A stretch of DNA of 64,000 nucleotides from Cordylochernes scorpioides (Eukaryota > Arthropoda > Arachnida > Pseudoscorpiones > Chernetidae): assembly GCA_030710605.1 (NCBI GenBank), contig CP092874.1, forward strand, positions 24,983,277 through 25,047,276. The letters are read 5' to 3'. Of this stretch, positions 8,606 to 56,386 are shown one piece after another (the first letter of the stretch is position 1; each line of letters starts with the position of its first letter). Both the position numbers and the translations under genes were made by a program. The notes beneath the pieces were generated by a model. The model saw only the letters and a program-made list of their open reading frames with translations. It did not search any database and had not been told where the DNA came from.

Positions 8606-9016
8606 ACTCTGGCTAGGCGACTGTCTTCTTACCTCCCGTGTTGTCTGTGGGGAGTGTAGCTGGGCGACTGTCTTCTTACCTCCCGTGTTGTCTGTGGGGA
8701 GTGTAGCTGGGCGACTGATCTTCTTACCTCCCGTGTTGTCTGTGGGGAGTGTAGCTGGGCGACTGTCTTCTTACCTCCCGTGTTGTCTGTGGGGAGTGTA
8801 GCTGGCGACTGTCTTCTTACCTCCCGTGTTGTCTGTGGGGAGTGTAGCTGGGCGACTGTCTTCTTACCTCCCGTGTTGTCTGTGGGGAGTGTAGCTGGGC
8901 GACTGTCTTCTTACCTCCCGTGTTGTCTGTTGGAGTATAGCTGGGCGACTGTCTTCTTACCTCCCGTGTTGTCTGTGGGGAGTGTAGCTGGGCGACTGTC
9001 TTCTTACCTCCCGTGT
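8606..9016. repeat. 47-bp minisatellite (copy A)
   Basis: Unit TGTTGTCTGTGGGGAGTGTA then GCTGGGCGACTGTCTTCTTA and CCTCCCG, 47 bp. About nine units before the assembly gap. Confidence 0.93.
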
Positions 9017-14155: not shown

Positions 14156-14435
14156 ATTTTGTTAACACTTGGTTATCTCGTGTATCTTCAATAAAGTCAC
14201 TGTTGTATCAAAAAGATTTTAGAGTTATTGTCTGAATCCCGATAAACATGCTGAAAGCTACAACTTCCTTAAGTTTTGTCCATGAGTGTAGTTTATCATT
14301 CCAAGCTGTTTGCGAAGTAAGTGGAGGGGAGAAGAGGGAGACTGTGAAGTGGTGTCAATTGAGGTCGCATGACCCATACATCACAGCTGATATTCTGGTC
14401 CCGGCGGCTACTGCTGACTCAAACTTCTCACTCTA

Positions 14436-15752
14436 GCTGGGCGACTTTCTTCTTACCTCCCGTGTTGTCTGTGGGGAGTGTAGCTGGGCGACTTTCTTCT
14501 TACCTCCCGTGTTGTCTGTGGGGAGTGTAGCTGGGCGACTTTCTTCTTACCTCCCGTGTTGTCTGTGGGGAGTGTAGCTGGGCCACTGTCTTCTTACCTC
14601 CCGTGTTGTCTGTGGGGAGTGTAGCTGGGTGACTGTCTTCTTACCTCCCGTGTTGTCTGTGGGGAGTTTAGCTGGGCGACTGTCTTCTTACCTCCCGTGT
14701 TGTCTGTGGGGAGTGTAGCTGGGCGACTGTCTTCTTACCTCCCGTGTTGTCTGTGGGGAGTGTAGATGGGCGACTGTCTTCTTACCTCCCGTGTTGTTTG
14801 TGGGGAGTGTAGCTGGACGACTGTCTTCTTACCTCCCGTGTTGTCTGTGGGGAGTGTAGCTGGGCGACTGTCTTCTTACCTCCCGTGTTGTCTGTGGGGA
14901 GTGTAGCTGGGCGACTGTCTTCTTACCTCCCGTGTTGTCTGTGGGGAGTGTAGCTGGGCGACTGTCTTCTTACCCCCCGTGCTGTCTGTGGGGAGTGTAG
15001 CTGGGCGACTGTCTTCTTACCTCCCGTGCTGTCTGTGGGGAGTGTAGCTGGGCGACTGTCTTCTTACCTCCCGTGTTGTCTGTGGGGAGTTTAGCTGGGC
15101 GACTGTCTTCTTACCTCCCGTGTTGTCTGTGGGGAGTGTAGCTGGGCGACTGTCTTCTTACCTCCCGTGTTGTCTGTGGGGAGTGTAGATGGGCGACTGT
15201 CTTCTTACCTCCCGTGTTGTTTGTGGGGAGTGTAGCTGGACGACTGTCTTCTTACCTCCCGTGTTGTCTGTGGGGAGTGTAGCTGGGCGACTGTCTTCTT
15301 ACCTCCCGTGTTGTCTGTGGGGAGTGTAGCTGGGCGACTGTCTTCTTACCTCCCGTGTTGTCTGTGGGGAGTGTAGCTGGGCGACTGTCTTCTTACCCCC
15401 CGTGCTGTCTGTGGGGAGTGTAGCTGGGCGACTGTCTTCTTACCTCCCGTGCTGTCTGTGGGGAGTGTAGCTGGGCGACTGTCTTCTTACCTCCCGTGTT
15501 GGCTGTGGGGAGTGTAGCTGGGCGACTGTCTTCTTACCTCCCGTGTTGCCTGTGGGGAGTGTAGCTGGGCGACTGTCTTCTTACCTCCCGTGTTGGCTGG
15601 GGGGAGTGTAGCTGGGCGACTGTCTTCTTACCTCCCGTGTTGGCTGGGGGGAGTGTAGCTGGGCGACTGTCTTCTTACCTCCCGTGTTGTCTGTGGGGAG
15701 TGTAGCTGGGCGACTGTCTTCTTACCTCCCGTGTTGTCTGTGGGGAGTGTAG
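14436..15752. repeat. 47-bp minisatellite, left part
   Basis: About 28 units of the same 47-bp sequence as 8606-9016. Variants (AGATGG, TTGTTTG, TACCCCCCGTGC) recur in blocks: the order at about 14760-15010 is repeated at 15180-15450, showing higher-order duplication. Interrupted by the KH retrotransposon and continued at 18794-19720. Confidence 0.93.
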
Positions 15753-15754
15753 AT

Positions 15755-16046
15755 TGTTCTACCGCGTTAGGGTAAAGGTTCGAGCTGCAGTGAGAACTAT
15801 AAATTAATAATTTATATTTTAATAAGTGTCCAAAAATTACATACAATTATAAGAAGCAGATGGAGTACAGTTTTTACTCCACCAGCGCCTAGAGTATTAT
15901 ATAATAGAAGGAACCGCTGCAGGTTGCATCGACGCGCGGTAAACACCCGCTGACATCAGGCGGAGTTCGAAAAGTGCGCGCGCAGGCCGGCTGGCCAGCC
16001 GCCGGCGTCCCAGGCCAGCGTCGCCCGCTGGCATCCTCTTATCTCA
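15755..16046 (-). repeat. 3' LTR of the KH element
   Basis: 292 bp. It carries TATATAATA (minus strand, about 15895-15905) as a candidate TATA box, and encodes the last ~30 residues of the element's ORF, whose stop is at 15956. Confidence 0.9.
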
Positions 16047-18412
16047 TGCCCCCCCTGGAGATTGGGACTTGGGACCGATCCAACGTAGTTGCTATAATGC
16101 GGGTTCGGTTCTCGGGTTCGAGGGGATAAGGTCTGCTGATGTTGAGCTGAGTTGGGTGGGGTGGTGTACGGTGGAGGCACGAAAGGTCGTAAGAATCTGC
16201 GATTACGGCGAAGAAGGCGTCCGGCGTCGGTCCGGATGAGGTAGCTGCGACCGCATGGAAGTTGTTCGAGAACCTTAGCAAGGAGGGTCCAATGTTTTGT
16301 GCGGTGATCCTGGACAAGGACTATTGCTCCCACTTCCAAATGTGAGAGTGGCTTGGCGTTGCGATTGTATCGCTTTCGGAAGGAATGTTCTCTTACATTT
16401 TGCTGCAAGAGGTACTGGGCCATCTGGATCTGCTGGGGCGTGCCAGAGATGGTGATGACCCGTTCGTTGCTACCAGGTTGAGACTCATCTATGGTGATCC
16501 CCGCACCAGACTCGCGCCGGATCTTCCTGATGCGTTGACCACCTTTCCCAATGATGGCCCCGGCGAGATCATTTGGTATAGTGACTTGTGATGAGCCTTT
16601 TTTCGGGACGACTACCATAGAATGGCACCAATCGATGGCTTCGCCGACGGGTACCTGTTCGATTATCCCTTTCGCCAACATGGTATCGAGTTGAGTTTTG
16701 ACGGGGTCTCTCCAGTGAAAGGGAACGTCGTATGCCCGGTAGCGTTTGCAAGGAACGGCATCTTTAACTAGTTCGATAGACATGGGGGGTCCTTGCATGG
16801 GTTTTAACACTGTGTCGTCGAACGCTCTAGCATAATGGGTAAGGATAGACTGCTTATCGATCTCATTGGCTCTCACCGGGGTCGGCGGGAACGTTAGAAC
16901 TTGTCCGTTGGTTATGGCATTGACGATCATTGAATGGGGCCAGTTATCCGGCAGAAGTCCTAAGGCTTTGCATCCGCTCTTGCTCAAGAGAGGGGCGTTC
17001 AGGTGCTTGCAGACTCCAACGGTAGTACTGTATGTTTTCCCGTTGAGATGCAGTGCCGCGACGAACGATCCACAAGGACTTAAGCTGATGCCGTTGGCTC
17101 CTACGCAAGGGACGTTCTTCGGGTTGAGTGCTGATCGGGTCTGCTCATCCAGTAACAGGAATTCTGATTCTGGGATTAGATCCAGATCTGACCCCGGGTC
17201 CGCCAGCCAACGGATTTGGTGTAACATATGGTTGATATCGGTCGGAATGGTTATGAGTTCGTTGCGTACTCCAGCTGCAACAACTGTGTTTGAGGGTCCT
17301 GGTTGGGACTGATTGTTTCTGGTTGCGGGTGGCGGGATCTTAGGTTTGGTTGTGGGTTTCCGTTTCAGTTGTCGGCAAACCCTTCCGTAATGCCCGGTGA
17401 TGCCGCATTTGTTACACTCTATGTCTTTTGCTGGGCACTGGTCACGGCGGTGTCTTGGGTTAGCCCCACAACCGGAGCAGGGGTCGTTAGGATCATAGGG
17501 TTTTTGAAAGAAACGGTTGGCCTTAGGTGAGGTTTCAGACGAGCTGGCTTGTTGATGCTTGTAGGTTGATGGTGCACGTCTGGTTGCAATGAAGGCTTCA
17601 GGGGAGGTGGTTGGGGAGGGTGAAAGAGTCGCGCCCACGGCGGTAGCACTCTCATGTGCGAGGCAAATTGAGAGGACTCGGTCCAGGGAGAGGTCGGAAT
17701 TGTACTGCTCCGCCAGTACTTTTCGTTGGAGGTCTTTATCAAACAGGCCACATATTAACCTGTCACGGATACGGAGTTGCTGTTGATAACCAGCAAGGGC
17801 AAACGTTTTCCCACAAGCTCTTTTTGTGCATATTGTAATACACGGGTCGCCGCATGTGCTGCACTTAAAATCCAGCTCATGTGCACACGAGTCATCAAGA
17901 GCTTTAAGGGCTGCGAAGTAGCGATCCACCGATTCTCCGGTTTGTTGGTCCCTACGATGAAAATCTTGCCGATCAAGGAGGGGGTTTCGCTTCTTGCGTA
18001 GGTAGGCCTCGAGAGCATTCACGGCTTCATCGAGGGTGGTGGTGGTAGAAATATGAAGGCGGCCTGATTGCCAAAGGATGGTCCATTCGGAATGGAGGGC
18101 GGCACGCAAAGTCACTTGCTGTGTGGATAGCGGGAAGGTGGCTACTTGTTGGGCGTCCACGTAGTCGTTCCAACGTTGTTTCCAAACGCGGAAAAGAGAC
18201 ATCGTCAACTCCTCCGGGGAAGCCAGTTTAGGAAGCTGGATGATTTTTGTGGCGTCGTGAGGGGGAGCTCCTAATGGGACAGTCGGTGTCGGATTCCGAG
18301 TAGCCATCTGCTGCAACAGTGCGGCTATGGACCTGAGGATGTCGGTGCTGGTCGGCGAGGCAGGGTTCTCTGGAGGGGTTTGGGATGGTCGGCGATTCCT
18401 TCTTGAGGGCAT
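15956..18412 (-). CDS. Gag-protease-like-KH-integrase tail fusion protein
   Basis: 818 codons, uninterrupted, from ATG at 18412. Order: gag-like region with a Cys-rich insert near residues 180-200 ([17 protein letters not shown]); two zinc knuckles at about 311-345 (CSGCG..., [14 protein letters not shown]); a retropepsin-like site at about 404 reading DPGSD where DTGS/A is usual, so protease activity is doubtful; the RT N-terminal fingers ending MVVVPKKG at about 604. Then a KH domain at about 606-672 ([19 protein letters not shown], GxxG loop GKGG, ending AQYLLQQNV) matching the third KH domain of hnRNP K. Then the integrase C-terminal tail ([20 protein letters not shown]). RT catalytic aspartates, RNase H and the integrase core are absent. 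The KH segment likely binds C-rich single-stranded nucleic acid, by family knowledge. The element needs enzymes in trans; the KH domain could add RNA binding to Gag. Confidence 0.9.
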
Positions 18413-18472
18413 CTTGATTACAAATTGTCACTGAGCTGTCACTTAAAAAAACGGCTATAATTAACCGAATGT

Positions 18473-18483
18473 CGACTGCGCCA
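18473..18483 (-). promoter_or_regulatory. Primer-binding site (tRNA-Ser type)
   Basis: Minus strand TGGCGCAGTCG directly inside the 5' LTR, complementary to a tRNA ending CGACTGCG-CCA. The same site occurs in the gypsy element at 47601. Confidence 0.8.
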
Positions 18484-18788
18484 TGTTCTACCGCGTTAGG
18501 GTAAAGGTTCGAGCTGCAGTGAGAACTATAAATTAATAATTTATATTTTAATAAGTGTCCAAAAATTACATACAATTATAAGAAGCAGATGGAGTACAGT
18601 TTTTACTCCACCAGCGCCTAGAGTATTATATAATAGAAGGAACCGCTGCAGGTTGTATCGACGCGCGGTAAACACCCGCTGACATCAGGCGGAGTTCGAA
18701 AAGTGCGCGCGCAGCCTGCGCGCGCAGGCCGGCTGGCCAGCCGCCGGCGTCCCAGGCCAGCGTCGCCCGCTGGCATCCTCTTATCTCA
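18484..18788 (-). repeat. 5' LTR of the KH element
   Basis: 305 bp. Identical to the other LTR except one substitution (GTTGTATCG against GTTGCATCG) and an extra 13-bp tandem duplication in the GCGCGCGCAG stretch. Confidence 0.9.
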
Positions 18789-18793
18789 TAGAT

Positions 18794-19720
18794 GGGCGAC
18801 TGTCTTCTTACCTCCCGTGTTGTCTGTGGGGAGTGTAGCTGGGCGACTGTCTTCTTACCCCCCGTGCTGTCTGTGGGGAGTGTAGCTGGGCGACTGTCTT
18901 CTTACCTCCCGTGTTGGCTGTGGGGAGTGTAGCTGGGCGACTGTCTTCTTACCTCCCGTGTTGTCTGTGGGGAGTGTAGCTGGGCGACTGTCTTCTTACC
19001 TCCCGTGTTGTCTGTGGGGAGTGTAGATGGGCGACTGTCTTCTTACCTCCCGTGTTGTCTGTGGGGAGTGTAGCTGGACGACTGTCTTCTTACCTCCCGT
19101 GTTGTCTGTGGGGAGTGTAGCTGGGCGACTGTCTTCTTACCTCCCGTGTTGTCTGTGGGGAGTGTAGCTGGGCGACTGTCTTCTTACCTCCCGTGTTGTC
19201 TGTGGGGAGTGTAGCTGGGCGACTGTCTTCTTACCCCCCGTGCTGTCTGTGAGGAGTGTAGCTGGGCGACTGTCTTCTTACCTCCCGTGTTGTCTGTGGG
19301 GAGTGTAGCTGGGCGACTGTCTTCTTACCTCCCGTGTTGGCTGTGGGGAGTGTAGCTGGGCGACTGTCTTCTTACCTCCCGTGTTGCCTGTGGGGAGTGT
19401 AGCTGGGCGACTGTCTTCTTACCTCCCGTGTTGGCTGGGGGGAGTGTAGCTGGGCGACTGTCTTCTTACCTCCCGTGTTGTCTGTGGGGAGTATAGCTGG
19501 GCGACTGTCTTCTTACCTCCCGTGTTGTCTGTGGGGAGTATAGCTGGGCGACTGTCTTCTTACCTCCCGTGTTGTCTGTGGGGAGTGTAGCTGGGCGAGT
19601 GTCTTCTTACCTCCCGTGTTGTCTGTGGGGAGTGTAGCTGGGCGACTGGCTTCTTACCTCCCGTGTTGTCTGCGGGGAGTGTAGCTGGGCGACTGTCTTC
19701 TTACCCCGTATGTTGTCTGT
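18794..19720. repeat. 47-bp minisatellite, right part
   Basis: About 20 units, the continuation of 14436-15752. The right end decays into ACCCCGTATGTTGTCTGTAC. Confidence 0.93.
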
Positions 19721-21822: not shown

Positions 21823-23165
21823 ATGATTACATGGTGAGTAGAGGGTTGTAACAGCTTGTACTGTAAGTACACCACATGTCTACACATATAGTACCAGGCC
21901 ATGATAACATGGTGGGTAGAGGGTTGTGACAGCTTGTACTGTAAGTATACCACATGTCTACACATGTAGTACCAGGCCATGATAACATGGTGGGTAGAGG
22001 ATTGTGACAGCTTGTACTGTAAGTACACCACATGTCTACACATGTAGTACCAGGCCATGATAACATGGTGTGTAGAGGGTTGCGACAGCTTGTACTGTAA
22101 GTACACCACATGTCTACACATGTAGTACCAGGCCATGATAACATGGTGGGTAGAGGGTTGCGACAGCTTGTACTGTAAGTACACCACATGTCTACACATG
22201 TAGTACCAGGCCATGATAACATGGTGGGTAGAGGGTTGTGACAGCTTGTACTGTAAGTACACCACATGTCTACACATGTAGTACCAGGCCATGATAACAT
22301 GGTGGGTAGAGGGTTGTGACAGCTTGTACTGTAAGTACACCACATGTCTACACATGTAGTACCAGGCCATGATAACATGGTGGGTAGAGGGTTATGACAG
22401 CTTGTACTGTAAGTACACCACATGTCTACACATGTAGTACCAGGCCATGATAACATGGTGGGTAGAGGGTTATGACAGCTTGTACTGTAAGTACACCACA
22501 TGTCTACACATGTAGTACCAGGCCATGATAACATGGTGTGTAGAGGGTTGTGACAGCTTGTACTGTAAGTACACACAAGTCTACATATGTAGTACCAGGC
22601 CATGATAACATGGTGGGTAGAGGGTTGTGACAGCTTGTACTGTAAGTACACACAAGTCTACATATGTAGTACCAGGCCATGATAACATGGTGGGTAGAGG
22701 GTTGTGACAGCTTGTACTGTAAGTACACCACATGTCTACACATGTAGTACCAGGCCATGATAACATGGTGGGTAGAGGGTTGTGACAGCTTGTACTGTAA
22801 GTACACCACATGTCTACACATGTAGTACCAGGCCATGATAACATGGTGGGTAGAGGGTTGCGACAGCTTGTACTGTAAGTACACCACATGTCTACACATG
22901 TAGTACCAGGCCATGATAACATGGTGGGTAGAGGGTTGTGACAGCTTGTACTGTAAGTACACCACATGTCTACACATGTAGTACCAGGCCATGATAACAT
23001 GGTGGGTAGAGGGTTATGACAGCTTGTACTGTAAGTACACCACATGTCTACACATGTAGTACCAGGCCATGATAACTATGGTGGGTAGAAGGTTGTGACA
23101 GCTTGTACTGTAATAACACCACATATCTACACATGCAGTACCTGACCATGATAACCCATGGTGAG
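21823..23165 (-). repeat. 78-bp satellite, array 1 (about 17 units)
   Basis: In the orientation of array 2 the unit contains CCATGTTATCATGG, ACATGTGTAGACATGT and TGTACTTACAGTACA: three short hairpins with 4-5-nt loops. Because 78 is a multiple of three, all frames stay open over long spans and give spurious repetitive ORFs. Unit variants (ACACACAAGTCTACATATG near 22570 and 22650) occur in adjacent units. Confidence 0.95.
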
Positions 23166-31361: not shown

Positions 31362-34300
31362 TTAAGGTACATATCTATCCGGTGGTCTCCTCTCTCGTAG
31401 TGGATATCTCCGGGAAGGTGTAGATTCAGTTGGTGGTCCAGGTGTAGATTCTGCTACTATTGTAGCAGGAGTCAGGGGACTTGACGTCTGAGGCCTTGGG
31501 TAGCTTATTCCTTCTTCTGATGACGAAACATCCTTTCTCTCCATACTTCTCCTCATATAGTTAGTGTGTACTTTCCTTTCTATTCCATCAGTTTCTATCA
31601 TACAGCTGTTGCTTCCCACTATTCTCTTTACAATCCCAAACATCCATTTCGGTTTTCCTCTTTCCATCCATCTGTATCTTACTCTATCATTTACTTTGTA
31701 GCTATTGTTCTGTTTTTTATTTTTCAATCTCCCCACTCTTACTGATTTCTTGCTCAACATGGAAATCTTCGTTCTAATCTCGCGATTTAAAAATATTCCA
31801 GCCGGGGATTTCTCCGTTCTAGTCAAAGGACTCAGTCTATATGCATATAAAGCCTTAATCAAAGCAAACTCAAGGGGCAATTCCCTTTCCTCCGAAATAA
31901 TTCTTTTCATAGTTTTTTTTATCTCTCTTACAGACACTTCCGCTAGTCCGTTGCTCTCCGGATGGTAAGCGGGGCTGAACATCGCATGTATGCCATTTCT
32001 TTCGAAAAATGTCTTTATTTCATAACTTCTAAACGGGGGCCCATTATCCATTACCGCCACCTCCGGGATACCATATCTCGCCAAACATTCTCTCAAAAAG
32101 TCTATGCAGAATCCCGCCGATGTATTTGGAACCATTTGACATTCTATCCAATTAGAATGCGCATCCACCAATATCAAAAAAGTTTTTCCCGCAAAATAGA
32201 AATAGTCAAGATGAATTCTCTTCCAAACTTTGTTTGGTGGAGTCCACTCGGTAAATTCCTGTTTTGGCAGCTTTGATGTGTTTTCCATACAAGTGCTACA
32301 GCTTTTAGACAGTTTCTCAATTTGCTCATCCATTCCCGGCCAATAGACAGAACTTCTGGCCAGAGTTTTCATTTTATTTACTCCAATATGATTTTCATGG
32401 ATGATTTTCAAAACATATTCTCTTAAGGAATCGGGGATGATCATTCTATTTCCGAAAAACAGGCAATTTCTTACTATTGTTATCTCGTTTTTAATTCTAT
32501 TATAAGGTTTTATATCTACCTCTGAGTCAACATCATACCTATCGTACTTGACTAACTTATATAGTTTTCTAAGAGTTGGATCTTCTTGGGTTTTGTACGA
32601 TACCAAGACGTAATCTAATATCGAATTTTCTATTAATAATATTTCTCCCATTTCCTCTTCCTTCTCCCCTTTTTCAGGATTTGGAAATCTTGAAAGAAAA
32701 TCTGCAAGAGGTATTTCACTTCCCTTAGTATACTTAATTTCAAAATTAAAATTTGATATTGAGAGTGACCATCTATGTAATCTATTTGCCACTAAGGCTG
32801 GTAAATTATTTTTATCGCCAAAAATGGCTAGTAATGGTTTGTGATCTGTATTAATAATAAATTTTCTTCCGTAAAGGAATTGTTTTAGCCTGTTTAAGGT
32901 AAAGAATATTGCTAATCCTTCTTTTTCTATTTGGGAATATTTCTTTTCTGTGTCATTTAGTGTTCTTGAAACAAAAGTAATTGGTTTCTCAGTGCCGTCT
33001 ACAATATGGGAAATATATCCTCCAATACCATAATTTGATGCATCACAAGTAACATAAAGAGGTAAATCTTGCGAATAATGCGTCAAACAAGTTTTTGTAC
33101 TAATCAAATTTTTACATTTTTCGAAAGCCTGATCATGTTCATTTTTCCAATTCCAATTATAACTTCTTTTCAATAGAGAGAATAAAGGATTTGCATGTAT
33201 GGATAAATTTCTAACGAATTTACTGTAGAATGACAACATGCCCAAGAAAGATTTCAATTCTGAAATGTTACTCGGTTTAGGACATTTTTTTATACTGTCC
33301 AGTTTATCCTCAAGGGGATAGATTCCATTTTTATTTATTTTATGTCCCAAATAATCGATTTCATCAACAAAAAACAAAGATTTTTCTTTATTAATTGAAA
33401 AATTAAAATCCGATAATTTATTCATGACTGTTTCAATATCTGAAATATGCTCATTTACATCAGACGATGCTACAAGAATATCGTCTAAATATATTATTAC
33501 ATTTTTAAGACCGGAAAAAATATTGTCCATAGTTCTTTGGAAAATAGTTGCTCCGGACTTGATACCGAAGGGCAGCCTTTTATATTTAAAAAGGCCTTTA
33601 TGGGTAGAAATAACTGTCAATTTTTGAGATTCCTCGTCTAGAAGTATCTGATGGTATGCGCTTGAAAGATCAATTTTACTAAATATACTTTTACCAAAAA
33701 ATGAATGTAAAACATTATCGATGTTCGGTATCGGATACTTTACATCCTCGATAAATGGATTTAAGGTTCTTTTAAAGTCCGCGCAAATTCTAATTTTGCC
33801 GTTTTTCTTAGGGACGCATACTAGCGGTGAAGCTATTGGGCTATCCACTATATTTTCAATAATATCATTATTCAATAAAAATAATAGTTCTTCCTCAATT
33901 AAATTTCTAATAGCAAAGGGAGCAGGTCTAAATCTATAAAATTTTGGTGCAAAATTATTTTTTACATTAATGTGTACGGAAATATCCTTTATTGGCAAGA
34001 CTATATCTTTGAAAAGTTTACAATATTTATTAAAAATAAAATTAGTATCAAAATTATTATTTTGTTGGACATTAATTTGTACCATATCAAAATATACTAT
34101 CCAGTCTTTTCCTATGAGAAATTTATTATTTTCAATATTTGTTACTATTAAGTTTAAATGGCCTATTTTATTTTTATATCTTACTTTTACTTTACATTCT
34201 CCAATAGAGGAAATGCCCTTTCCTTGATAATCGGTTAAATAACATTTAGACGGAAATAATTTAACATGTTCAAAATATTTTAAAAATAGATCTTTTGACA

Positions 34301-35066
34301 TAGTTGTTAAAGCTGCACCCGTGTCAATTTCTGCTAAGAATTTTATGTCGAAGACATACAAAATACTTTCAAATTTATTAGCCAGATATTCTATGTTATT
34401 GATGGACTCACCATTCTTTCCCGAAAATGATTCTCCGTGGGCAGATGCTTCGCTCTTTCTTGATTGAAAATATCCATTCTTAGATTTTGAATGACAAACA
34501 GTCGATATATGTCCCAATTGTTTACAAGAATAGCAGAAAGAATTTCTAAAAAAACATCTGTCCGAATGATGATTCATCTTTCCACAATGTTTGCATTTAG
34601 AATGTAATTTGTTTATTTCTTTAGTTTCAGCATAAGACTTCATTTTCAACACATTACAATCTACCGATTCTATTGTGGTAGCAATATTTACTGCCATATT
34701 AAAAGTGAGCTCAGGCTCTTGAAGTAATCTTTTCAAAATAACTTGATTAGAAACGCCTGCAATGAATTTATCCCTTAGGTGTTCTTCAATATTTAAGCCA
34801 AAATTACATTTATTAGCTTGTTTTTTTAATTTAAGGACATATTCTTCTATTTTTTCTCCATGTTCCTGAATCAATTGGCTGAACTCATATCTTTCAAAAA
34901 TAATATTTAGCTTAGGTGTAAAATGAGTAAGTAGAACACTAACAATTTCTTCAAATTCTAATGCACAAACATCTCTAGGTGAGATCAATTCTTTCAGAAT
35001 TCCATAAGTATTTGGTCCAATAGACATAATAAAAAAAAGGAACAATCTTCTTACCTTCAATTTCAT
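31362..35066 (-). CDS. Gag-Pol polyprotein of gypsy 1, 5' end frame-broken
   Basis: 1234 codons in one frame. Gag remainder at 1-120; two CCHC knuckles at about 159-192 (CKHCGKMNHHSDRC, CYSCKQLGHISTVC); retropepsin DTGA at about 249; RT with SKIDLSSAYHQI and the YLDD box at about 527; RNase H (TCDASNYGIGG) at about 675; integrase HHCC zinc region at about 890-925; integrase core with Asp (HLDYFY, ~951), Asp (VMDNGPP, ~1008) and Glu (GLAEVSV, ~1041). All catalytic residues are present. The real gag start is upstream at 35157 in another frame (35157-34975); the switch falls near an A-run at about 35029-35037, so the full reading frame is broken once. The K02A2.6/Mag-like lineage is a guess from motif style. 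Confidence 0.88.
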   Translation of the reverse strand: MKLKVRRLFLFFIMSIGPNTYGILKELISPRDVCALEFEEIVSVLLTHFTPKLNIIFERYEFSQLIQEHGEKIEEYVLKLKKQANKCNFGLNIEEHLRDKFIAGVSNQVILKRLLQEPELTFNMAVNIATTIESVDCNVLKMKSYAETKEINKLHSKCKHCGKMNHHSDRCFFRNSFCYSCKQLGHISTVCHSKSKNGYFQSRKSEASAHGESFSGKNGESINNIEYLANKFESILYVFDIKFLAEIDTGAALTTMSKDLFLKYFEHVKLFPSKCYLTDYQGKGISSIGECKVKVRYKNKIGHLNLIVTNIENNKFLIGKDWIVYFDMVQINVQQNNNFDTNFIFNKYCKLFKDIVLPIKDISVHINVKNNFAPKFYRFRPAPFAIRNLIEEELLFLLNNDIIENIVDSPIASPLVCVPKKNGKIRICADFKRTLNPFIEDVKYPIPNIDNVLHSFFGKSIFSKIDLSSAYHQILLDEESQKLTVISTHKGLFKYKRLPFGIKSGATIFQRTMDNIFSGLKNVIIYLDDILVASSDVNEHISDIETVMNKLSDFNFSINKEKSLFFVDEIDYLGHKINKNGIYPLEDKLDSIKKCPKPSNISELKSFLGMLSFYSKFVRNLSIHANPLFSLLKRSYNWNWKNEHDQAFEKCKNLISTKTCLTHYSQDLPLYVTCDASNYGIGGYISHIVDGTEKPITFVSRTLNDTEKKYSQIEKEGLAIFFTLNRLKQFLYGRKFIINTDHKPLLAIFGDKNNLPALVANRLHRWSLSISNFNFEIKYTKGSEIPLADFLSRFPNPEKGEKEEEMGEILLIENSILDYVLVSYKTQEDPTLRKLYKLVKYDRYDVDSEVDIKPYNRIKNEITIVRNCLFFGNRMIIPDSLREYVLKIIHENHIGVNKMKTLARSSVYWPGMDEQIEKLSKSCSTCMENTSKLPKQEFTEWTPPNKVWKRIHLDYFYFAGKTFLILVDAHSNWIECQMVPNTSAGFCIDFLRECLARYGIPEVAVMDNGPPFRSYEIKTFFERNGIHAMFSPAYHPESNGLAEVSVREIKKTMKRIISEERELPLEFALIKALYAYRLSPLTRTEKSPAGIFLNREIRTKISMLSKKSVRVGRLKNKKQNNSYKVNDRVRYRWMERGKPKWMFGIVKRIVGSNSCMIETDGIERKVHTNYMRRSMERKDVSSSEEGISYPRPQTSSPLTPATIVAESTPGPPTESTPSRRYPLRERRPPDRYVP

Positions 35067-42117: not shown

Positions 42118-43016
42118 CTATGGGAACAGAGATTGGTAGGATTCAGGAAGGTCGATATGTCTATTGATGGCGTGGAAGCCCTGGGAAACGAGAGCTTCCA
42201 AGGTGAGGCGCTGCTGCTTGTTGTGTATGCGGCTATAGTGCACAGATGGATTGGCCAGGTCGAAAGAGTGGTTGGTGGTTCGGATATGCTGGTATATGGC
42301 TGATTTCTCATCTTGTCTGGAGATGTTTTTTCTGTGTTCCTCGAGTCTTGTCCCTACGCTCCTGCCCGTCTCACCAACGTAGACAACATCGCAGTCAGCG
42401 CAGGGAATGGAGTAGACACAGCCAGACAAGAGAGATGGGTTAAATGGGCTATTGCTTTTAGTACCCGGGTTCCTAATGAGGGAACTGATGTTAGGGGAGT
42501 TGGAGTACAGGGTCCTGACTCCAAACTTGCTTAGGGCTCGGGCTATGGAGGAGCTAGTGGGGGAATATGGGAGGACACATATGGATTTATACACGGGGTT
42601 GGGAGCAGTGTGGTTGGGGTTGTGGAAATGGCGTAATATAAAAGACTTCGGGTATTGGAATTTTATGAGATTAGCTATGACTCTATTGGTTTCCATGGTT
42701 TTGAAATCAGAGGTGGAACAGTGGGTGTGTACTCGTTTAGACAGGGTTTTGACTGTGTTGATTTTGTGACTAAGGGGACAGAAGGAGTTGAAGTGAATAT
42801 AATTTGGTCTGAACGAGTTCTTGTAATGTACTGTGGAGTGGTATCTGGTTGGGGTCCGGATGATTAGGAAATCTAAGAAAGGGAGGGCGTTGTAGGTTTC
42901 GGTTTCATGGGTGAAGGAAAGGTCCGGATGGTAACTAATGAGTTTAGAGAGGATATTTTCAACCTGGCTTTTTGTGCATATGCAGAACACATCATCTATG
43001 TATCTACGCCAAAGGC
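42118..43016 (-). pseudogene. Penelope RT C-terminus and GIY-YIG endonuclease (left copy)
   Basis: Starts mid-RT at RLWRRYIDDVFCICTKSQVE (YIDD catalytic box), then SFTHETETYNALPFLDFLI, and ends with a GIY-YIG nuclease: CVYSIPCADCDVVYVGETG, R...GTRLEEH, and a downstream Glu-containing region. The longer open frame begins at 43110 only because it reads through the palindrome centre; the residues before RLWRR are antisense of the right copy. The 5' half of RT is missing, so it is not functional alone. Confidence 0.85.
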
Positions 43017-43019
43017 GGA

Positions 43020-43899
43020 TATGAATGTGTTCTGCATATGCACAAAAAGCCAGGTTGAAAATATCCTCTCTAAACTCATTAGTTACCATCCGGACCTTTC
43101 CTTCACCCATGAAACCGAAACCTACAACGCCCTCCCTTTCTTAGATTTCCTAATCATCCGGACCCCAACCAGATACCACTCCACAGTACATTACAAGAAC
43201 TCGTTCAGACCAAATTATATTCACTTCAACTCCTTCTGTCCCCTTAGTCACAAAATCAACACAGTCAAAACCCTGTCTAAACGAGTTCACACCCACTGTT
43301 CCACCTCTGATTTCAAAACCATGGAAACCAATAGAGTCATAGCTAATCTCATAAAATTCCAATACCCGAAGTCTTTTATATTACGCCATTTCCACAACCC
43401 CAACCACACTGCTCCCAACCCCGTGTATAAATCCATATGTGTCCTCCCATATTCCCCCACTAGCTCCTCCATAGCCCGAGCCCTAAGCAAGTTTGGAGTC
43501 AGGACCCTGTACTCCAACTCCCCTAACATCAGTTCCCTCATTAGGAACCCGGGTACTAAAAGCAATAGCCCATTTAACCCATCTCTCTTGTCTGGCTGTG
43601 TCTACTCCATTCCCTGCGCTGACTGCGATGTTGTCTACGTTGGTGAGACGGGCAGGAGCGTAGGGACAAGACTCGAGGAACACAGAAAAAACATCTCCAG
43701 ACAAGATGAGAAATCAGCCATATACCAGCATATCCGAACCACCAACCACTCTTTCGACCTGGCCAATCCATCTGTGCACTATAGCCGCATACACAACAAG
43801 CAGCAGCGCCTCACCTTGGAAGCTCTCGTTTCCCAAGGCTTCCACGCCATCAATAGACATATCGACCTTCCTGAATCCTACCAATCTCTGTTCCCATAG
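43020..43899 (+). pseudogene. Penelope RT C-terminus and GIY-YIG endonuclease (right copy)
   Basis: The same protein segment as the left copy, starting just inside the YIDD box (MNVFCICTKSQVENILSKLI), so this copy is truncated a few codons later and lacks the RT catalytic aspartates. The GIY-YIG domain is intact. Nearly identical to the left copy; among the visible differences is PKAS for PRAS. Confidence 0.85.
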
Positions 43900-47281: not shown

Positions 47282-47598
47282 TGAGACGTTACAAAAAACA
47301 ATTTTCAATTGTACATAAATTCTTTTAAGGTGTTACTTTAATTTTTCATATGTTTATTTTCAATTTCTTTTTCTCATTCATCAAAAGTCAATGATGTACA
47401 TACTAAATTAGTAAAAACTCAATAAAAACGATATGTAAAAATACATATAAACAAATGGCTTATAAAAGAAAGCGGCAATAAAATGAGTTTAGGTAAAATA
47501 TCTATTTCATTAACAAACATTTCACTTTTAAAAAAATAAACTTTAAAATTAAAGTTTTACAAAACTAAAATTAGCGTTTTAAAAATAAAAACGTGGCA
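47282..47598 (+). repeat. 5' LTR of gypsy 2
   Basis: 317 bp, A/T-rich; near-identical to the 3' LTR. Confidence 0.9.
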
Positions 47599-47600
47599 TT

Positions 47601-47611
47601 TGGCGCAGTCG
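47601..47611 (+). promoter_or_regulatory. Primer-binding site of gypsy 2 (tRNA-Ser type)
   Basis: TGGCGCAGTCG two bases inside the 5' LTR, identical to the PBS of the KH element. Confidence 0.8.
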
Positions 47612-47631
47612 AAAAGGATACAGAAAATAAA

Positions 47632-49395
47632 ATGGCGGAAAATCCAAACAACCGGTTGCAAAAATTCAACGGCTCGAAGTCGGCAATTAGGCCTGAGTCA
47701 TGGATCAAATTATATGATTTTGAAAATAATTCTTTAAAAGAAGATGAAAAAATCAAAAATCTTATGTACTACTTGACAGATTCAGCACTTGAATGGTATG
47801 CAGACGAGATTATTTCAAATCCTGCAATAAAAAGATGGGAAGTTGTAAAGGAAAAGTTGATTCAAAGATTTGGTTCATACAACGCAAATCCAATTGTCTC
47901 AGCATCACATCGAAGATTAAAACGAGAAGAATCAATAGAAAATTATTTTCAAGATAAAATTCGCCTGTTAAATCAAACCCATCTAACAAAGGAGGAAAAA
48001 ATTCATTTATTAACAGACGGACTTCCAAATGATTGGAAAGATCTAATTGTGGCTGCACAGCCAACTGACGCCACAAAATGGTTTCATATCGCAGCTTCAA
48101 TTGAACAAAATAGGGCTTCAATTCAGTTTAAGCCTAAAAACAAAATACATCTCGCGACAAAAAATAATGATAATAGAAAAAATGTTTGCCCATTCTGGTG
48201 TCCAATATGTTCGAAAAAGGGAATAAAAATTAAACATTGGGTCACAGATTGTGAGGATTATGATCCTAATTATAAAAAGGATAGGCCTAATCAAAACACT
48301 TCAGTGAAACAAGTATGCGGAGCCCCGGAATTGTTGAATGTAAGTACTTTGACAAATACCCCTACACAAGGAGCTTTCAAACTTATCAACATAAGTGTTG
48401 AAGTAAATGGAATTCCTGCGCAAGCATTTGTGGATACTGGTGCAACAGTATCAATAATCAATTGGCGATTGTTCAAGCGAACCCGTCTTCAACTTCAACC
48501 AAATTCAGACATTCACATCAGCCAAGCGGATGGTGTTACCAGGACATGTGGAAGCCTTCAGACCAAGGTAAGAATAGATAAACTAATTAAACCTGTAACT
48601 CTCCATGTAAGGAAGAACTTTAAATATCCACTCTTGATCGGATTAGATGTTGCATCTCTTTTTAATCTTTTAATAGATGTCAGAGACAAAACAATTTACA
48701 CCAAATTTGATGGATTACAAAATCCAATTCTTGTAAATCATCTAGAAGAGATAAGAGAACATGAATTAAAAAAAATACTTGAACACAATAGGAATGTATT
48801 TTCTCAGCATGCTATTGATTTGGGAAAAGTAGCTATACAACATAAGATCATCACGAAAAGTGAACAACCAATTTCTCTTAGACCCTATCGTCGTCCTCTA
48901 AAAGAGTATGAAGAGATAGCTGAACAAGTTAAAGAACTTCTCGAACACAAGTTAATAAGAATTTCAGATTCTCCTTGGGCATTTCCTGTTGTTATGGTTC
49001 CCAAGAAGGATGGAAATAAAAGGATGTGCATTGATTACAGACGTCTTAATGAGATCACGCTGGATGACAGGCAACCCCTACCTCACATACAGGACATGTT
49101 TGATCGATTGCATGGATCCAGATTCTTCTCTACCCTTGATGTTGCATGGGGTTATTGGCAGATCGAAATGGACCCGCAATCTATTCAAAAAACTGCATTC
49201 GTCACAAACGATGGTCATTATGCGTTTTTAGTGATGCCATTTGGTTTAAAAAATGCTGCTTCAACGTTTCAAAGGATAATCCAACATATTCTAGGTGAAT
49301 TATTATGGAAAGGAACTTGCTCTTTCCAAGATGACATATTGGTGTACACGAAAACATGGCAAGAGCACATAGAGCTTCTTAGTAAAGTTTTTTGA
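47632..49395 (+). CDS. Gag-protease-RT N-terminal frame of gypsy 2
   Basis: 587 codons from the first ATG (47632); the same open frame also extends upstream through the PBS without an ATG. Gag (about 1-190); a knuckle-like CPICSKKGIKIKHWVTDC at about 195-212 with longer spacing than CCHC; retropepsin DTGA at about 266; RT fingers and palm (WAFPVVMVPKKDG, STLDVAWGYWQIEM) up to the second catalytic box, which reads FQDDILVY where YLDD/YIDD is usual. It stops just after at TGA following a T6 run (49388-49393); downstream RT continues in the next frame. Confidence 0.88.
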   Translation: MAENPNNRLQKFNGSKSAIRPESWIKLYDFENNSLKEDEKIKNLMYYLTDSALEWYADEIISNPAIKRWEVVKEKLIQRFGSYNANPIVSASHRRLKREESIENYFQDKIRLLNQTHLTKEEKIHLLTDGLPNDWKDLIVAAQPTDATKWFHIAASIEQNRASIQFKPKNKIHLATKNNDNRKNVCPFWCPICSKKGIKIKHWVTDCEDYDPNYKKDRPNQNTSVKQVCGAPELLNVSTLTNTPTQGAFKLINISVEVNGIPAQAFVDTGATVSIINWRLFKRTRLQLQPNSDIHISQADGVTRTCGSLQTKVRIDKLIKPVTLHVRKNFKYPLLIGLDVASLFNLLIDVRDKTIYTKFDGLQNPILVNHLEEIREHELKKILEHNRNVFSQHAIDLGKVAIQHKIITKSEQPISLRPYRRPLKEYEEIAEQVKELLEHKLIRISDSPWAFPVVMVPKKDGNKRMCIDYRRLNEITLDDRQPLPHIQDMFDRLHGSRFFSTLDVAWGYWQIEMDPQSIQKTAFVTNDGHYAFLVMPFGLKNAASTFQRIIQHILGELLWKGTCSFQDDILVYTKTWQEHIELLSKVF

Positions 49396-51244
49396 CAAAT
49401 TAAGACAGTACAACATGAAATTAAAATTGTCGAAATGTATTTTTGGAAGAACTGAAGTAAAATACCTCGGACATATCATCAGTCACAATCAATTAAAACC
49501 TGATCCAGGAAAAGTAAAATCTATTCAAGACTTTCCAAGACCTGATACTGTAAAGAAAGTTCGTCAGTTCATGGGATTGGCAAATTATTACAGAAAATTT
49601 GTGAAGGACTTTTCTAAAATTTCATTCCCCTTGGTTCGACTCACTCGGAAGAATCAGCCCTTCATCTGGAATGAGGAAGTAGAGGAGTCGTTCGCTAAAC
49701 TTAAAATGGCACTATCTACAAAACCTGTCCTTGCTATTTACAACCCGGACTACCCCTCTAAAGTTTATACAGATGCCTCCAAATATGGAATTGGAGCAAT
49801 CCTAACACAAATTGGTCCAGACAATGAGGAACATGTAATTGCTTATTACTCCAAAACACTGCAACCACACCAAGAGAATTATTCTGCTTATGAGATGGAA
49901 TGCCTAGCCGTGATACAAGCAACTGATCACTTTCATGTATACATAGAAAACCAACCATTTGAAATCATCACTGATCATGCGGCGCTCCAATGGCTTTTCA
50001 CCATGAAGAAACCGAAACCTAAGTATTTTAGATGGATTCTTAGTTTATCCTGTTCTGGAAAGCAACAAACTCATGTTGACGCCTTATCAAGACTCCCAGT
50101 TGTTAACATTGCAACTCAAGAACTTCAAGAACACCAACAAAATTCAGATTTGAGTTTCTTGAAAAATTCCCACACTCATGACGGTGTGGTAATGATCAAA
50201 CAAAAAGGAGTTTTTAAAGCAGCTGTCCCAAACTCGCTTACCAAAAAAATATTGGAAGAATATCACGATTCATTGAGTCACCCATCAATAACCAAAACAT
50301 GCAAACTTATAACTCAATGTTATTGGTGGAAAGGAATAACAACTGATATCAAGAATTATGTTCGATCTTGTAAATCTTGTCAACTAGTGAAGGTCAGACA
50401 TGAACCAACTTTAGGAGAAATGATCACTCCAACGTCAAATATCCAACCATTACAAATGATCGGTTGTGACACTTTTGTACTGGGAACAGCAGCAGCTAAC
50501 ACAAAGCATAAATTCATTCAAGTTTTTGTTGATCACGCAACTCGTTATCTATGGGCATATCCCACAATAACAAACACTGCTCAAGCTGTCACTCAATGTC
50601 TTGATAAGATAATCAAATCTGTTAATTCGATCAATACTATCTTAACAGATAATGGCAAAAATTTTATATCAAAAGAGTTCAACAAATTTCTTTCTTTACA
50701 AGGAATTAAACACACATATACTTCGCCTTATCATCCTCAGTGCAATGGCATTTGTGAGAAATTAAATGATACGATAATGACAAAACTGAGAATAGCTGTT
50801 CTAGAGAAACCTAGATGTAAATGGAGCACATTATTACCGCAAGTTGTCAAAAATTATAATTCCACACCACATGACGTGACTGGTTTTTCACCGCTTTTCT
50901 TAATGTATGGAATCGGTAATGTACCCGAATTTGCCGACCAAACTCCAATTACAATTGAAGAAGCCAGGAAGAAAGCTAGCCTGCGGACAGAACAAATTAG
51001 AAGTAAGTGGAAGATTAAACACGATACCCATCACCCCAAGTATGTCTTTAAAGAAGGAGACTTAGTCATAAGAAAAATTGCCTTCAACGACCCTCGTCTC
51101 ATCAAAACATCACCAAAATATGAAGGACCATTTGTCATTCAAAAAAAGATATCTGATGTAACCTACGATATCTCTCTGAAAGACCAAAAACAAGCAAGAC
51201 GCGTTCACATATCTCAACTTCGACCATTTATTACCCGAGAATAA
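49396..51244 (+). CDS. RT C-term-RNase H-integrase frame of gypsy 2
   Basis: Open frame entered after the T6 frame break; the first internal ATG is 49415 (609 codons). RT thumb/connection (FGRTEVKYLGHIISH), RNase H YTDASKYGIGAIL at about residue 117, integrase HHCC zinc region at about 283-330, core Asp (GCDTF, ~350), Asp (TDNGKN, ~410), Glu (CEKLND, ~447), then a C-terminal GPY/F-type tail (KYEGPFVIQKKISDVTYDIS). All expected catalytic residues are present. A single indel separates it from the upstream frame, either a recent mutation or an assembly error in the T-run. Confidence 0.88.
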
Positions 51245-54099: not shown

Positions 54100-56386
54100 A
54101 CAATTTGACAATTAAAATTACTTTATTGACCTCTTAGTCAATTAAGAACACTCCGGAGAGTTAAGCAATAAAAAAGTATTTACAGCAACAAAACAACAGG
54201 GGGTGCCCTCAAAGAGGGTCTGGGTTAGGGAGGCAAGGAGGCCCTGAGCTCAGAAAGCTTCCCGCGAAGAAAAGGATCCAAGTCCAGAGCGCGCTCCAAG
54301 AGAGCGTCAAGGATCTGAGCCAGAATGTTCCTTTGCCTGGGCAAAAGTTGCTCGATGAGTTCCTCCCTGTCCCTGGGGTTAAGGGTCGCATCCGTGAGTT
54401 CTGATTGGTCGATTCCCGATTTGGACGTAGGCCCCAAGTCGGGTTCTTTCATGAAGATCTGATACAGAGATAGTGACATCTCCCATTGGGCCAGGTCCGG
54501 ATTATCCTCCAGGGCAGGCGGCGGAGGTGTCATCACAGCAGGCATCAGTTCTTCGCTGTGGGGAGTAGGTGGCGTTGGTCCAGAAGGCCGAGGCGCAGGC
54601 AGTGGGGGTGTTGGAGGCTCTGCTGGTGTTGTCCTGAGTTCAGCCTTGACTTGTCCGAGGACTTTGTACAAGTTGCTGGCTGCTCCGGGTCTCAGATTCA
54701 AGATTTGCCCGATCACGCCGACGAGGGCGTCGCACTGCGGAGGCGACAGGAGGGGTCCTTTCCTTTGCGCCTTGGTCCTCGAGGAGAGGAGGTCCAGGAC
54801 CTCCTCCCGCCCAAGACCAAGGGCGTCCGTCTTAGCGAATGACACGCTGGGGTGCCCCTCGATGAACGCATCGAGGTCGACTCTCGTAGCGTTCTTTGCC
54901 GAAGACGTGGATGACGCAAAGGTCTCCTCCACGATGGACATCTCCACGTCCGGTGTTGGGGCTGCAGACCCGAGGGTCCTCTGGGCGGGACCCCCAGGCG
55001 CCTGCAGGGACGGAGCAGGGGTCACAGGTGGAGGGGTAGAAGGCGCCTCCTCCATAGGTACGGCCGGGGCTACCGGCGGAGATGGTCGAGGTGCTGTAGA
55101 TGTAGTTACAGCTCGGGCCGCAGGAGAAGTGCCGGGAGTCTCTCTGGCTGGACTGGAGGACGCCGGTGTAGGAGGCTGGGCCGCTGACCTCTGAGGCGGT
55201 GCAGAGGTGGTTGTTGATGGAACGGCGGCAGGAGTGGTTGGTGGGGCCAATCTGGTGTTGTTAGCTAGCCCTGCAAGCAGGGGGCAGTTGGCCCTGCGAT
55301 GTCCTTGGCCACGGCACCTGGAGCACCTAATCCCGGAGGACAGGTATGCGGGCCAGGCCTCGCCTTTGATGGTGATGTCGAGGCGGGTGGGCAGCCTCTC
55401 GATGGTCATTCCTTCGCGGAAGATGATAAACGCCTCTCGGCGGCCGTCGTTGTAGATGTATGGGCCAGCCTTCATCAGCTTGGGGGCGATAGATGTGACC
55501 CGCCCAAAAGATGAAAGGGCGCTGATGACGGCTGCATCCCCCACGAAGAAGGGGAGGTTGCCCACTGTAATTCGCTCCGCCCTCTTGCGGAACGGGAAGG
55601 CCCTGTGGAGAGTGCCCTCCACCTCGAGGCCCTCGTTGACGAGGCGCTCGGCCATGCCTCTGTTAGCCAGTCCCACCAGGAAGTGGCCGTTCATTTTTGT
55701 CAGTTGGAAGACCTCCCTGGTCCCTCCGAACATCCTTTCAATTGCCCTCATGTAGTGAAAGGGCTCCAGTTCAGGGCTGCGCTCTACATAAACGCAGTGG
55801 TCCTCGGTGGAAGACGCCTGCCGCGCCCTGGCCTCCGCGATGTGCGCTCGGGTGGTCCTGATTTCCTCCGCCCGCGGTGCCCATCCCGTGGATGATCGCG
55901 GCCGGCGAATGGCTCCAGCGCCTCTGATGTTAGAGGAAGGTGCAGCCGCCGCAGGTGATTCCGCCGAGCCACGGCGTCTTTTCTTTCTTTGGACAGTGAT
56001 GAAAGGTTCCTCAGATTCGTGATTGTTGTCCTCCGCTAAGTCTGCCCAGCTTCTATTGGCTTGGGCAGCGGCCTCGGAAAACGAGGCAGTAACGAAGTCG
56101 GTCGGCGTGGCCGGATTTGCATGATGTCCGCCGGCGGGCGGATTTGCATAGTTTTGATTTTTGTTGAAGAGATTTGAAGTTTTCTTCTGAAAAATCTTCT
56201 TTCTTAGATAGTTCAGCACATGGTTGTGCTTTTTCGCCGTGCCTTACAGGCTTTTGCTCGGCTTTTGACGGGCTTTCAGCCCGTATAAAATTTGTCGCCA
56301 TCCGCGACACTTTTCGCCCGCCTGACGCGAAAAACTCAGGAGCTCGCGCGACGCGTGGCCGCACGGCCGAGTGTAGACATGTGGTG
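54085..56386 (-). mobile_element. TX1-like ORF1-only non-LTR element
   Basis: A GC-rich 2.27-kb insertion (54100-56371) in the 78-bp array, minus strand, flanked by a 15-bp duplication TGTAGACATGTGGTG (54085-54099 and 56372-56386). The 3' end has AATAAAG (54121-54127 complement) and finishes TTAATTGTCAAATTGT without a poly(A). The single ORF is ORF1; no endonuclease or RT is present, so it must depend on another element. The duplication could partly reflect array periodicity, but the junctions are clean. Confidence 0.82.
54225..56219 (-). CDS. TX1-type ORF1 (nucleic-acid-binding, CCHC)
   Basis: 664 codons, intact, ATG at 56219. Basic N-terminus (TVQRKKRRRGSAESP); an RRM-like region at about 140-290 (ITVGNLPFFVGDAAVISALS); one CCHC knuckle CSRCRGQGHRRANC at about 297-310; a Pro/Ala/Ser-rich linker (about 320-460); and an acidic, helical C-terminal third. 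The order resembles the ORF1 of Xenopus Tx1-like elements, which binds element RNA in the particle (family knowledge). GC-rich codon use contrasts sharply with the window. No second ORF follows, which is unusual for a LINE. Confidence 0.78.
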   Translation of the reverse strand: MLNYLRKKIFQKKTSNLFNKNQNYANPPAGGHHANPATPTDFVTASFSEAAAQANRSWADLAEDNNHESEEPFITVQRKKRRRGSAESPAAAAPSSNIRGAGAIRRPRSSTGWAPRAEEIRTTRAHIAEARARQASSTEDHCVYVERSPELEPFHYMRAIERMFGGTREVFQLTKMNGHFLVGLANRGMAERLVNEGLEVEGTLHRAFPFRKRAERITVGNLPFFVGDAAVISALSSFGRVTSIAPKLMKAGPYIYNDGRREAFIIFREGMTIERLPTRLDITIKGEAWPAYLSSGIRCSRCRGQGHRRANCPLLAGLANNTRLAPPTTPAAVPSTTTSAPPQRSAAQPPTPASSSPARETPGTSPAARAVTTSTAPRPSPPVAPAVPMEEAPSTPPPVTPAPSLQAPGGPAQRTLGSAAPTPDVEMSIVEETFASSTSSAKNATRVDLDAFIEGHPSVSFAKTDALGLGREEVLDLLSSRTKAQRKGPLLSPPQCDALVGVIGQILNLRPGAASNLYKVLGQVKAELRTTPAEPPTPPLPAPRPSGPTPPTPHSEELMPAVMTPPPPALEDNPDLAQWEMSLSLYQIFMKEPDLGPTSKSGIDQSELTDATLNPRDREELIEQLLPRQRNILAQILDALLERALDLDPFLRGKLSELRASLPP

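Follow-up and report, generated by a model that had tools for sequence, protein, structure and literature searches.

A KH domain of host hnRNP K stands in frame in place of the reverse transcriptase, RNase H and integrase core in a young family of LTR elements of Cordylochernes scorpioides

The window analysed here, the whole stretch of 64,000 nucleotides, is taken from contig 12 of the assembly of the chernetid pseudoscorpion Cordylochernes scorpioides (positions 24983277-25047276; the assembly has 2.62 Gb in 24 contigs). It contains an LTR element with one long open frame, in which a KH domain lies between the start of a reverse transcriptase (RT) and the tail of an integrase. The insertion site of this element, called the KH element below, is an array of a 47-bp minisatellite. 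Its parts are as follows.

15755-18788, minus strand: complete non-autonomous LTR element, 3,034 bp, with TG...CA ends and flanking TAGAT; other copies align
15750-15754, no strand: target site duplication (TSD) TAGAT, low-coordinate side, by direct reading
18789-18793, no strand: target site duplication TAGAT, high-coordinate side, by direct reading
18484-18788, minus strand: 5' LTR, 305 bp
18473-18483, minus strand: primer binding site (PBS) TGGCGCAGTCG, immediately 3' of the 5' LTR, identical in 4/4 parent pieces
15956-18412, minus strand: one 818-aa frame with Gag, protease, RT leader, KH and integrase tail
17375-17479, minus strand: Gag zinc-knuckle region (CSGCG...; CCHC), read from the translation of the frame
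17189-17200, minus strand: protease active-site position, DPGS and not the usual D-S/T-G
16598-16700 (upstream edge approximate), minus strand: RT N-terminal leader inherited from the parent, ending VVVPKK
16382-16597, minus strand: spliced host hnRNP K mRNA, 216 nt from three exons, including 9 nt common with the parent at the 5' join
16400-16588, minus strand: KH_1 domain with GKGG loop (hnRNP K KH3)
16367-16381, minus strand: 3' join, with the TTCC duplication, the final host bases, AAG common with the parent, then parental CGATAC
16178-16378, minus strand: integrase C-terminal remnant, in frame, compared with 20/20 parent integrases
16047-16056, minus strand: polypurine tract (PPT) AGGGGGGGCA, G-rich, adjoining the 3' LTR, identical in 5/5 parent copies inspected
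15755-16046, minus strand: 3' LTR, 292 bp

The two LTRs of this copy differ by 1 mismatch over 292 aligned sites, plus 13 gap columns, and the stop codon of the 818-aa frame falls within the 3' LTR. The primer binding site presumably matches the 3' end of a tRNA-Ser. The TG...CA ends and a TSD of 5 bp, which is TAGAT here and a sequence of its own in each of 16/20 further copies, are those of Ty3/Gypsy LTR elements.

Several other repeats were observed in the window. The 47-bp minisatellite unit is found at 8612-9016, 14434-15752 and 18789-19720, with the KH element inside one array, and a 78-bp minisatellite recurs at 21823, 52581 and 56371. A second Gypsy-like element has a 1,234-aa open frame with RT, RNase H and integrase (31362-35066, minus strand). 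A third (47593-51244, plus strand) has two neighbouring frames of 600 and 609 aa, the first with gag, protease and the start of RT and the second with RNase H and integrase. Two near-identical, overlapping 330-aa frames lie in opposite orientation at 42118-43899; the one that was scanned gave a GIY-YIG match just below the Pfam cut-off (21.7 against 22.6 bits), a domain of the sort that Penelope-like elements carry. A 664-aa frame (54225-56219, minus strand) has no Pfam match and is perhaps ORF1 of a non-LTR element; by eye, it resembles the second half of the public C. scorpioides protein P0002.

A reading of this DNA made earlier from its letters alone (the sequence-only reading) had described one uninterrupted frame of 818 codons, and this was confirmed at 15956-18412 on the minus strand. 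When the 818 residues were compared with Pfam, KH_1 alone passed the cut-off, and residues 1-601 gave no family, a Gag family included. The Gag part is named by its position, its CCHC knuckle and its similarity to relatives such as protein P0010 (246 of 584 aligned positions, 42%). The retropepsin motif D-S/T-G is replaced by DPGS, which is also found in 7/7 parent pieces that cover the protease site (L071, L074-L079); the protease is either an unusual enzyme or one that is not needed. Of the element's own RT and integrase, on which autonomy would depend, only the RT leader and the integrase tail are left. The predicted structure of the chimera has a mean pLDDT of 48.6, with the KH stretch below 50, in a model built on a 7-row alignment without any KH relative; the integrase remnant shows strands at residues 697-743, in a block with pLDDT of 75-81.

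The KH_1 profile (PF00013), with which the sequence-only reading had proposed to search the frame, matches residues 609-671 (window 16400-16588) at E = 9.3e-21. The nearest relatives of solved structure are hnRNP K KH3 entries (E = 2e-24), in agreement with the reading, which had taken the domain with its GKGG loop for the third KH domain of hnRNP K. It is a type I KH domain with a GXXG loop, and of all KH proteins it is hnRNP K that it resembles most. Among the best 120 of 295 passing public proteins, the highest matches are two Centruroides (scorpion) hnRNP K records with 82% identity, and the named proteins are mostly arthropod hnRNP K; P0009, also in this list, is a piece of the KH element itself. 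The captured stretch is slightly wider than the interval given for the domain, 16390-16590, covering 16382-16597 plus about 9 nt (to about 16373).

A search of public proteins with the 818-aa frame found 14, the best nine of which are from C. scorpioides. At least three public C. scorpioides proteins named HNRNPK (P0001, P0002 and P0009) contain transposon pieces, which is a warning for annotation. In the gene models of P0002-P0004, the KH apparently ends at a splice site directly behind QQN, at a GTAAGAG past the exon join.

The host hnRNP K gene was located with the KH1-KH2 part of scorpion hnRNP K at about 99229920-99232292 of contig 9. Its KH3 is split across three exons, of which 30 + 170 + 16 nt form the captured part. 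The two host introns in this stretch (57 and 288 bp, GT...AG) are precisely missing from the element, which bears out the earlier proposal that the intron-free segment came from a spliced host mRNA. Intron-free host coding exons between LTRs are also what characterises transductions of the kind described for maize Bs1. The host frame ends VREHSGRKF-stop, and the captured stretch ends just short of the stop; KH1, KH2 and the remainder of hnRNP K are missing from the element.

Over the 216 nt, the window copy has one silent difference from the host, leaving its protein sequence identical to host KH3, and this difference is private to the window copy among 45 distinct copies. These 45 come from a first set of 50 loci (L001-L050) picked by KH score. 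The stretch is identical to the host in 27 of them, has a single base changed in 16 and two bases changed in 2. A second set of 20 copies was chosen by the 5' join, made up of every exact match on contig 1 (18) plus the first 2 listed for contig 2, with two (L088 and L106) repeating earlier copies; 9/20 match the host exactly.

The other contributor was found with an integrase piece, by scoring 150 matches of 49,871 first-look candidates, many of them with open frames of about 1,485-1,499 aa. One copy (pieces L071 and L051) carries RVT_1, RNase H, H2C2 and rve in this order in Pfam, which is the Ty3/Gypsy pol order. From protease to RT leader (element positions 1558-2203), 7/10 pieces have 99.1-99.4% identity to the KH element, and the other 3 do not cover the stretch. 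The identity is 93.6-97.3% in the LTR and the start of gag (4/4), and 92.1-96.3% in the integrase tail and 3' LTR (20/20), with a difference in LTR length. The PBS (4/4) and the PPT (5/5 inspected) are the same. On these comparisons, the parent is recognisable as a Ty3/Gypsy-type LTR element in the same genome.

By string search, the RT join was readable in 5/10 parent pieces (L071-L080) and the integrase join in 20/20. Seven of the ten RT pieces align across the join; L072, L073 and L080 align to the 5' part, as in shorter copies. The parental stretch that is replaced in the KH element is about 2.2 kb. The comparison with parent and host thus upholds the central claim of the sequence-only reading, that an hnRNP K-type KH replaces the RT, RNase H and integrase core in frame in an LTR element. 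The direct joining of the RT leader (MVVVPKKG) to the KH and the re-entry at the integrase tail were both where that reading had put them.

At the 5' join, the parent (...GAAAAAAGGCTCATCA-GAACCG) and the host (...AAGCAGGGCTCATCA-CAAGTC) have the 9 nt GGCTCATCA in common; the element has parent sequence before GGCTCATCA and host sequence after it. The chance of 9 bases in common at a join is about 4e-5 by a rough ad hoc formula. At the 3' join, the host GAACATTCCGGAAG appears as GAACATTCC-TTCC-GGAAG, followed by parental CGATAC. Here, AAG (3 nt) is common to host and parent, and TTCC is doubled as a 4-nt duplication; by direct reading, the integrase tail is in frame with the four duplicate bases counted. 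A 6-nt filler, the first reading of the 3' join in the window copy, was rejected. All 20 join-chosen copies read TTCCGGAAG there, which shows that the window copy has one base of its own and that the join consists of host TTCC in duplicate.

Short homologies of 9 nt (5') and 3 nt (3') are as expected of joins between an element and a host mRNA. They fit template switching, the route that had been proposed earlier, in which the RT of the parent would move from element RNA to a spliced hnRNP K mRNA packaged with it, and back. A template-switch model is described for LTR-mediated retroposition in passages of PMC5408686. An intron-free segment would be equally expected if a processed hnRNP K retrogene had been inserted into, or had recombined with, an element at the DNA level. 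On a KH search that scored 150 of 499 candidates, we regard such a DNA-level route as improbable: neither edge has a poly(A) or retrogene flank, and each leads directly into coding sequence of the parent at a short homology, with about 2.2 kb of pol lost in between.

Very probably, a Ty3/Gypsy-type element captured spliced hnRNP K mRNA as it was reverse transcribed and was then recently amplified as a non-autonomous family; the order of the switches, a single capture, mobilisation in trans and translation are what we infer. Minus-strand synthesis would start on element RNA and pass through the 3' LTR and the integrase tail; at AAG, it would then switch to an hnRNP K mRNA packaged alongside, entering it immediately before the stop codon. 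Copying would proceed back through the three final coding exons of hnRNP K, until a second switch at the 9-nt GGCTCATCA returned synthesis to element RNA at the start of RT. The product is without some parts of the parent, namely RT, RNase H and the core of the integrase, about 2.2 kb in all; it has kept LTRs, PBS, PPT, Gag and protease, and encodes a Gag-PR-KH-IN-tail protein in a single frame. As it has kept neither the RT core nor that of the integrase, the KH element would most naturally be mobilised in trans, borrowing both enzymes from its autonomous parent in the same genome. Against this course of events, the TTCC duplication at the 3' join requires an additional slip, and the fact that both joins are in frame may be due to luck or selection.

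That the KH family makes such jumps is seen in L107 (contig 4:76385450-76386620), where about 50 nt of the KH segment are followed by a return to gag, and this by an RT-deleted integrase. L107 is read as a secondary recombinant, and the family seems to make repeated template switches.

Across the assembly, with up to 3 mismatches allowed, the 5' join is present at 340 places (161 + 179, including at least one cut KH segment, that of L107) and the 3' join at 350 (165 + 185); reversed-pattern controls gave 0 for both. These figures are about twice the 159 places (70 + 89) at which the intact RT site of the parent was found, a count of copies within 3 mismatches of one 32-nt site that misses older parent copies. 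Both joins are present in 30/30 of the top-scoring KH copies, from a genome search in which 150 of 499 candidates were scored. Counting copies that share both breakpoints had been suggested earlier as a check. Of the two findings named there as refuting, a missing KH match and an assembly chimera, neither holds: the KH is matched, and the joins recur at these 340 and 350 places. The annotation is admittedly confused, since public gene models of C. scorpioides call element fragments HNRNPK; an artefact of assembly or gene models is nevertheless scarcely credible with the joins at 340 and 350 places, controls at 0, and own 5-bp TSDs in 16 of 20 further copies taken stepwise down the list of 150. 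The assembly chimera is ruled out by these join places and the independent TSDs.

The family is young. In 17 usable LTR pairs there are 20 mismatches over 5,043 sites (mean 0.4%), and 6 pairs are identical; the pairs come from 20 fetched KH copies, among which L034, L036 and L049 offered no pair that could be used and were dropped, and the 17 include partial ones. As the joins are common to the copies, there was probably a single capture; it was recent and was followed by continued amplification. One sub-lineage has an in-frame 252-nt deletion in the RT leader before the KH, with open frames of about 737 aa, and another carries I655T in the KH (7/20 join-chosen copies). Among the 150 scored copies, 95 have open frames of at least 690 aa and 55 of less than 690 aa; in 17/20 join-chosen copies, the frame stays open over the retrieved stretch from RT leader via KH to integrase tail. 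A pol-deletion derivative, which has lost RT and RNase H, has kept the integrase and has no host insert between gag and integrase, is found at 11 places, one of which is L107 with its KH fragment upstream, and three of which follow one another within 6 kb of contig 6.

Whether the captured domain does anything for the element was considered from the copies themselves. In the 20 join-chosen copies, the KH changes comprise 5 amino-acid-changing and 4 silent distinct kinds against a neutral N:S of 2.4-3.1 (p = 0.27), giving no evidence of selection in this set. In the 45 score-picked copies, piN/piS is 0.35 in Gag, 0.98 in the RT leader, 0.98 in the integrase tail and 0.47 in the KH; the KH value is biased because the copies were picked by KH score, and the Gag signal may be partly inherited from the parent. 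With copies this young, the KH does not lend itself to a test of selection.

At present, it is somewhat more likely that the KH is a passenger than that it has a role. As a neutral passenger, it would have come to be in frame by chance, and the family would have spread through its shortness, its intact cis signals and a Gag that is still made. This reading, which we lean towards, agrees with the lack of a selection signal on the KH, with the youth of the copies (27/45 identical to the host) and with the shortened frames in 55/150 scored copies. It is less easily reconciled with the KH-less pol-deletion derivative, which is at 11 places against 340 for the 5' join, although this is a comparison of n = 1 between families that may differ in age. 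The open stretch in 17/20 join-chosen copies and the second group, whose 252-nt deletion before the KH is in frame, also count against it.

It is possible, if less probable, that the KH is used. The KH domains of hnRNP K bind C-rich RNA. A Gag-KH protein could bind such RNA, including the element's own sense strand, and improve packaging, or it could compete with hnRNP K and relieve silencing. The sequence-only reading had likewise proposed, as a possibility, that such a Gag might package or regulate specific RNAs. The KH is intact, with the window copy protein-identical to the host, and the 5' join outnumbers the parent's RT site about two to one. The sense strand of the element is 30% C, with 75 CCC steps against 30 on the other strand and 18 TCCC against 9, all raw counts without a composition control, and the C-rich gag derives from the parent. 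In mouse stem cells, SETDB1 depends on hnRNP K to silence endogenous retroviruses (PMC4303303). Together with the C-rich sense RNA, this makes a role for the KH plausible by analogy; however, the silencing role is one described in the mouse, so that a similar role in arachnids would be an extrapolation, and the missing selection signal counts against use of the KH as well. The same role in the mouse makes the choice of domain intriguing (PMC4303303).

A further, more doubtful idea is that the captured hnRNP K domain is the reason why the family won, with Gag-KH acting as a host-derived RNA-binding or anti-silencing tool. If true, a defective copy would have been turned into one that outnumbers its autonomous parent, and an animal LTR retrotransposon would be seen taking a host domain into service near the moment of capture.

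Where LTR elements have captured host mRNA, what is found is usually a single or decayed remnant, and the acquisition of host domains is the step by which retroviruses gained oncogenes. In C. scorpioides, donor, acceptor and product occur in one genome and are almost 100% identical in the captured part, which allows a base-exact reading of the switch points. With several hundred young copies in the family formed by the product, two questions become directly testable: by what steps retroelements take up host domains, and whether a captured RNA-binding domain alters the fitness of the element. In a limited literature search, no description was found of the present element or of any LTR element that contains a KH or hnRNP K domain, in agreement with the earlier statement that no described family of such architecture was known.

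The kind of event is already known, from maize Bs1 and from LTR-mediated retroposition in metazoans. Bs1 is not known to have a working pol, its insert is intron-free and its copy number is low. It is an LTR retroelement that transduced a plasma-membrane H+-ATPase and two other host gene segments, and a review describes its chimeric gene as transcribed and translated (PMC5408686, PMC13317346). The KH element is similar in that it is an LTR element in which host coding sequence forms a chimeric gene. It differs in being from an animal with a single RNA-binding domain, whereas Bs1 is from a plant with pieces of three genes, and in having a near-identical donor, the parent at hand and about 340 recent copies.

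For metazoans, Tan et al. 2016, according to PMC5408686, reported template switches that join the RNA of LTR elements to host mRNA where the two share short similarities, in flies, mosquito, zebrafish and chicken. Switching at short similarities is the feature that the KH element has in common with these cases. They are said to be mostly single retrocopies, and not an amplified family with a host domain in frame in the element protein.

Acute transforming retroviruses, in which gag is fused to a host gene, pol is lost and a helper is needed, resemble the KH element in architecture and helper dependence. The KH element differs from them as a germline retrotransposon that has captured an RNA-binding domain, and no role in disease is implied. 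What sets the present case apart from these known systems is that it comes from an animal and has an RNA-binding domain placed in frame within the element's own protein, together with a trio of donor, parent and product that is exact to the base, and a large, young family.
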